DNA from: a bacterium
Lineage (GTDB): Bacteria; JAMCPX01
NCBI GenBank assembly: GCA_021789095.1
Contig: JAJYJX010000025.1
Coordinates: 1-18,695 of the forward strand
DNA: 18,695 nt
Reading direction: 5' to 3'
Made by a program: the position numbers and the translations under genes
In this document: positions 367 through 467 of the stretch, piece after piece
Position numbering within the stretch: the first letter of the stretch is position 1
Layout: each line of letters starts with the position of its first letter
Notes under the pieces: model-generated
The model's database searches: none
The model's input: the letters and a program-made list of their open reading frames with translations, nothing else
What the model was told of the DNA's origin: nothing

Positions 367-467
367 CCCCGTTAGAAAGGACGTGGCTTTAAACCACACC
401 CTTTCTATAAGGAATTTAACAATTATCGTTTTGACCCCTCCATAAATGGTGGGGCTTTCTAACGGGG
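367..467 (+). repeat. 101-bp cruciform repeat, copy 1
   Basis: The element is bounded by perfect 13-bp inverted repeats, CCCCGTTAGAAAG at 367-379 and its complement at 455-467, and is flanked on both sides by TAAA. Inside are a 14-bp imperfect stem (373-407, 7-nt loop) and a 9-bp stem with one mismatch (435-454, 2-nt loop). Copy 2 at 2733-2833 has exactly the same length and differs at 17 of 101 positions. No protein is encoded. Copy 1 sits directly upstream of rsgA, ending 17 bp before the rsgA start and next to its Shine-Dalgarno sequence. It may be a miniature non-autonomous transposable element or a structured dispersed repeat; no transposase is present here. Confidence 0.85.

Follow-up and report, generated by a model that had tools for sequence, protein, structure and literature searches.

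Miniature inverted-repeat elements at gene ends in a draft bacterial genome, and a small GIY-YIG nuclease element as their candidate partner

Introduction

Miniature elements of the IS630 and IS5 type, such as Correia and Nezha, are palindromic and occupy TA-rich targets. The known chemistries of DNA transposases are few, comprising DDE enzymes, HUH enzymes, tyrosine or serine recombinases, and Cas1. Known GIY-YIG enzymes hydrolyse DNA, and to our knowledge none transposes. Prokaryotic MITEs, as characterized in the sections of a review drawn on here (PMC10969869), are short, bounded by terminal inverted repeats (TIRs), flanked by a target-site duplication (TSD), multicopy, devoid of an open reading frame (ORF) and mobilised in trans, with type II MITEs having only the TIRs in common with their partner. 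GIY-YIG domains occur in selfish elements as the homing endonucleases I-TevI and Seg, and in mobile elements as the endonuclease of Penelope-like retroelements (both from the portions used of PMC1564403). A 2024 study of rRNA genes of the CPR describes, in the part used here, GIY-YIG inserts that are not introns and seemingly do not spread by homing, as well as many unexplained, short, ORF-less inserts of less than 200 bp (PMC11270868).

The window, i.e. the whole stretch of 18,695 nucleotides analyzed, contains two 101-bp repeats that belong to a family with the MITE traits of being short, TIR-bounded, TSD-flanked, multicopy and ORF-less (PMC10969869). Unlike those MITEs, the apparent partner is a 280-bp GIY-YIG element and not an insertion sequence, and one TIR is common to many phyla with unrelated interiors. 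The family differs from IS630/IS5-type MITEs in its 4-bp TSD (TVAA) and in that no DDE transposase was found with these ends. I-TevI and Seg share the domain family, but here there is no intron or cognate allele, and the nuclease gene, enclosed by TIRs with 4-bp TSDs, occupies many unrelated sites. In contrast to Penelope-like elements there is no reverse transcriptase, the TIRs are short and the TSD is of fixed length. The CPR rRNA-gene inserts resemble the present elements in combining non-intron GIY-YIG inserts with short inserts in the same phyla, a likeness by description only, as TIRs and TSDs are not reported in the part of PMC11270868 used.

Results and Discussion

Two MITE copies in the window

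The following features were assigned (positions are those of the window).

363-366, no strand: left TSD of copy 1, TAAA (from the sequence, the TSD rule seen in 120/211 elements, and empty sites)
367-467, plus: copy 1, 101-bp MITE
367-379, plus: left TIR of copy 1, CCCCGTTAGAAAG
380-400, plus: inner hairpin 1 of copy 1, covarying
435-454, plus: inner hairpin 2 of copy 1, covarying
455-467, minus: right TIR of copy 1
468-471, no strand: right TSD of copy 1, TAAA, 4 bp
2729-2732, no strand: left flank of copy 2, TGAA, in which TGA is the stop codon of a CHRD-like gene
2733-2833, plus: copy 2, 101-bp MITE
2733-2745, plus: left TIR of copy 2, CCCCGTTAGAAAG
2746-2766, plus: inner hairpin 1 of copy 2
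2801-2820, plus: inner hairpin 2 of copy 2
2821-2833, minus: right TIR of copy 2, CTTTCTAACGAGG, 1 mismatch
2834-2837, no strand: right flank of copy 2, TAAA, one transition from TGAA

The two copies align without gaps over their equal length and are identical at 84 of 101 bases, as the initial annotation had described. The inverted ends, also as described there, are 13 bp long (CCCCGTTAGAAAG/CTTTCTAACGGGG); the right end of copy 2, CTTTCTAACGAGG, introduces a single mismatch. Each copy stands close to a start codon, with 17 bp between copy 1 and the ATG of rsgA (minus strand, 349) and 11 bp between copy 2 and the ATG of a methyltransferase gene (2845). Upstream of copy 2, the stop codon of the CHRD-like gene (TGA, 2729-2731) falls inside the left flank. 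Between the two copies, a 660-bp intergenic stretch (480-1140) holds many degenerate REP-like pieces, e.g. CTGGATTCTCCCGCATCAAGTGCGGGACAG near 928-957.

Copy number and distribution

The host genome is a draft of 2.15 Mb in 203 contigs, of which about 1.0 Mb was examined in stretches. The 101-mer yielded 23 BLAST matches in this genome, and with up to 2 mismatches allowed the end motif TAAACCCCGTTAGAAA occurred 134 times compared with 0 for the reversed control, so that the repeats constitute a family and not a chance recurrence. Within the approximately 1.0 Mb of host contigs, these ends pair in the correct orientation into many elements, mostly of 30-140 bp, with widely different interiors. 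The high-copy family suspected from two copies alone is therefore supported, and a member length of 101 bp, the 23 family matches, the 134 end motifs and the lack of a transposase gene agree with a MITE.

The pattern ACCCCGTTAGAAAN{58,88}TTTCTAACGGGGT was found in at least 116 stretches of genome contigs, spanning Deltaproteobacteria/Syntrophaceae, Nitrospirota, Nitrospinota, Omnitrophota, Sedimentisphaerales, Stahlbacteria, and many Patescibacteria. Across these lineages the TIRs stay exact and the element interiors are completely different (MAGs of many phyla). Viral contigs contained neither such elements nor GIY-YIG relatives.

Target sites and insertion

Flanking sequences were compared for 211 distinct elements that carry the GTTAGA core. 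In 120 of them the flanks were identical over exactly 4 bp, against about 0.8 expected, while identity extended over only 3 bp in six and over 5 bp in one. The target consensus was (R)T[AGC]AA, represented by TAAA (71), TGAA (25), and TCAA (11). A multicopy host repeat supplied an empty site, ...GCATA TAAA CTTAC... as opposed to ...GCATA TAAA [element] TAAA CTTAC..., and in a second comparison a TTTA target was likewise single when the element was absent. These empty sites, a comparison proposed in the initial annotation, confirm the 4-bp duplication, and with the 120 of 211 identical flanks they support the reading given there of the TAAA on either side of copy 1 as a target duplication. The window elements are non-autonomous miniature transposons (MITEs) that insert at (R)T[AGC]AA with a 4-bp duplication, and they belong to a TIR/TSD mobile family spanning phyla.

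More than 10 copies of a second dispersed repeat, approximately 230 bp long, are present in the host genome, with TIR elements nested in this repeat at a single site (GTAAG TTTA TATGC). Copies lie at L054 2943-3180, L111 4771-5009, L068 6331-6552, and L081 12231-12449, with further loci at L107, L096, L126, L097, L063, L093, and L116.

Insertions lie preferentially at the ends of genes, and often they fall on the stop codon, e.g. copy 2. In 33 cases the exact end of an ORF of at least 90 codons lay within the flank; a stricter set gave 21 of 129 insertions exactly at a stop codon, compared with 3.8 to 6.4 expected. For elements of the host genome the median distance was 68 bp to the neighbouring gene start and 32 bp to the gene stop. 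The adjacency to start codons pointed out for the two window copies is thus not general.

Structure of the 101-bp subfamily

For the covariation analysis, 24 sequences of the 101-bp subfamily were taken from Deltaproteobacteria, the host genome and its relatives. Covariation was present in the TIR stem and in two inner hairpins, with 26 two-sided changes versus 10.2 after shuffling (0/500), and was far lower in slid controls. The helix formed by the 13-bp TIR (helix 1) was 95.8% paired among the 24 sequences. Wobble pairs were equal on both strands (31 GU versus 32 AC), which favours a constraint and role at the DNA level, as a single strand or a cruciform, over one on a single RNA. Two stretches compared with Rfam gave no match at E values up to 0.1. 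An attC-like reading was discarded on inspection, the motif orientation being inverted.

Small GIY-YIG elements with the same TIR core

TIR pairs in 1.7 Mb of sequence, a set in which loci fetched by GIY-YIG similarity are overrepresented, fell into size classes of 60-120 bp without a gene and 260-300 bp with a GIY-YIG gene. No ORF for a DDE or other transposase was found inside TIR pairs in this set. A long transposase-bearing element was considered and rejected; TIR pairs of more than 1 kb are few and all enclose ordinary host genes (rpsC, subtilase, glycosyltransferase, and radical-SAM, named from translations), and no transposase of a classical DDE insertion sequence was among their ORFs. 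The full element with shared ends that the initial annotation anticipated was found insofar as the TIR core is shared, but its gene encodes a GIY-YIG nuclease instead of a classical transposase.

In the host genome this element measures 278 bp (contig C172, 298-575), has the ends CCCCGTTAGAGAT...ATCTCTAACGGGG, and is filled by one ORF for an 86-residue GIY-YIG endonuclease. The copy is the only TIR-bounded GIY-YIG element among the host contigs, which were fetched for the element ends. The larger elements with the TIR core (C/T)CCCGTTAGA are 276-295 bp long, and nearly every one is filled by a single small GIY-YIG ORF. The protein matches the Pfam family at an E value of 6.5e-16 with invariant Y3, Y5, Y16, G18, R26, and E50. 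The domain and catalytic residues of homing endonucleases (invariant Y, Y, R, E) are therefore present, but in place of gene conversion into one conserved cognate site there are unrelated flanks within one genome and many TIR/TSD sites.

GIY-YIG relatives were sought in 50 genomes reached via MITE loci; 47 gave matches at E values up to 1e-6 and three gave none. Most of the closest relatives are bounded exactly by the GTTAGA-type TIR core, with the left TIR 17-28 bp 5' of the start codon and the end of the right TIR 0-33 bp past the last aligned codon. Direct flanks include TGAA/TGAA, TTGA/TTGA, and TATG/TATG. Most ORFs end in ...SLTG, their stop codon being the TAA or TGA of the duplicated target (TAAA or TGAA). 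A start codon supplied by the target (ATGAA) was also considered and dropped, being in frame in some copies only. Pairs of elements from the same genome were 85% and 79% identical within the TIRs, with flanks at the random level.

A main weakness of the proposed partnership lies in the host genome itself, where the TIR of the C172 element (...GTTAGAGAT, GAGAT) and that of the window MITEs (...GTTAGAAAG, GAAAG) have the core in common but differ beyond it. GIY-YIG elements elsewhere carry GAAAT and GAAAC, and exact GAAAG was seen in none. The C172 copy occupies the same locus in a relative (G001), which also counts against the proposed partnership. The pattern CCCCGTTAGARAN{216,246}TYTCTAACGGGG had no match in nine genomes of the family, its range excluding the gap of 252-254 in known copies (276-278 bp). 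The class-level GIY-YIG search covered nine genomes, and plasmids and phages gave no GIY-YIG match at E values up to 1e-15.

Relatives contained GIY-YIG copies with an internal deletion and both gene ends retained (L137, about 1480-1560, and L138, about 1490-1621), exemplified by MYVFLLGKRYLKNRLKRFLSLTG and a remnant of 33+10 codons. Such copies are possible intermediates toward MITEs.

TIR type and GIY-YIG phylogeny

Among 72 GIY-YIG proteins placed in a tree, one clade (support 98/86) carried the GTTAGA TIR in 19 of 19 members, including two truncated copies missed by the automatic label. The GTAGT TIR (5/5) and the GTTAAA TIR (4/4) each corresponded to one clade, and all TIR labels together required 16 changes on the tree versus 36.5 when shuffled. 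A further GTTAGA-type element (L277) was placed beside the GTTAAA clade. TIR type and GIY-YIG protein thus co-segregate. TIRs of other GIY-YIG subfamilies (CCCCGTAGTAGAA, ACCCCGCCCAAATTTT, and ACCCCGCACCTTTTGG, at L293, L296, L285, L284, L321, L325, and L326) have 4-bp direct flanks and the same spacing.

Proposed mechanism and alternative explanations

The window MITEs are probably mobilised by a GIY-YIG nuclease acting on its TIRs, with the 276-295-bp element as the likely autonomous partner. That the nuclease itself catalyzes mobility is about equally probable. Judged from the sequences, the protein would recognise the TIRs, cut at the element ends, make the 4-nt staggered cut in the target, and mobilise the element that encodes it and, in trans, short elements retaining the TIRs. 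Copies tend to land at gene ends, often at a stop codon, and leave the coding sequence intact; the process could be cut-and-paste or copy-type. The broader proposition, a class of transposons down to 276 bp with an 85-residue GIY-YIG protein as the only enzyme, trans-mobilised MITEs, a stop-codon preference, and a distribution over many mostly uncultured phyla, is favoured by a small measure.

Should the GIY-YIG gene instead be a passenger or a defence gene, a separate TIR-recognising transposase would have to move the elements in trans. TIRs with a 4-bp TSD are classical for DDE enzymes, the part assigned to the nuclease rests on sequence, 3 of the 50 MITE genomes had no detected GIY-YIG partner, and the host assembly is a draft of which about half was examined; even so, this alternative is considered rather unlikely, since GIY-YIG is the only gene and no TIR pair in 1.7 Mb holds a transposase ORF. 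Furthermore, several TIR types each have their own GIY-YIG subfamily, a correspondence that a passenger would not explain.

Covarying hairpins and a position near gene ends would also suit regulatory or RNA-processing elements (terminators or mRNA stabilisers), with mobility ancient or irrelevant. The equal GU and AC wobbles leave no strand preference, the two stretches were without an Rfam match, and interiors differ completely between lineages with exact TIRs, all of which make such a role very unlikely for the 101-bp repeats. RAYT/HUH elements are not known to make a TSD. REP-like palindromes that owe their spread to a RAYT transposase would be short, palindromic and intergenic as these repeats are, but direct 4-bp TSDs are present and no RAYT was found between GTTAGA-type TIRs. 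This origin and a local duplication only, the fallback named in the initial annotation, are together extremely improbable given 134 end motifs versus 0 in the reversed control, with copies genome-wide and elements in other genomes.

If mobilisation by the GIY-YIG nuclease holds true, a TIR/TSD element with this nuclease alone would represent an additional transposase chemistry and be among the smallest autonomous transposons, and would explain the multicopy small GIY-YIG genes of CPR and other uncultured genomes. It could also account for the unexplained short inserts and GIY-YIG inserts of CPR rRNA genes, which fit this reading as far as they are described in the part of PMC11270868 used. Such elements are not described in the sections drawn on of the 2006 GIY-YIG survey (PMC1564403) and the MITE review (PMC10969869). 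Among open-licence PubMed Central papers, the TIR motif of the short elements gave one string match, in an unrelated paper. The apparent partner element points to a kind of transposon undescribed in the open-licence PubMed Central papers covered, preprints excluded, with an earlier description elsewhere being possible.

GIY-YIG genes beyond the GTTAGA-type elements

A second set comprised 27 GIY-YIG loci from genomes not selected by MITEs. Inverted repeats scoring at least 11 were present near the ORF in six of the 27, with one more farther out, compared with 3 of 702 cross-locus pairings that reached 11. Most GIY-YIG genes of this set were without a TIR, so TIR-bounding marks a part of the small GIY-YIG genes and not all. 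In a set of 386 genomes, three from outside the host's family contained MITEs. Strong GIY-YIG matches were present in 21 genomes, which included two of the three, and of those matches only one was TIR-bounded. Co-occurrence across the 386 genomes is weak, and suggestive at best.

Within the host's family of genomes, small GIY-YIG genes without the GTTAGA TIR were flanked by the REP-like palindromes TCATTCCCGCGAAAGCGGGAATCC or GTCATTGCGAG (L132, at G000 C59:5773-5991, and L136, L140, and L141), a hint that GIY-YIG genes and palindromic repeats may be more widely linked.
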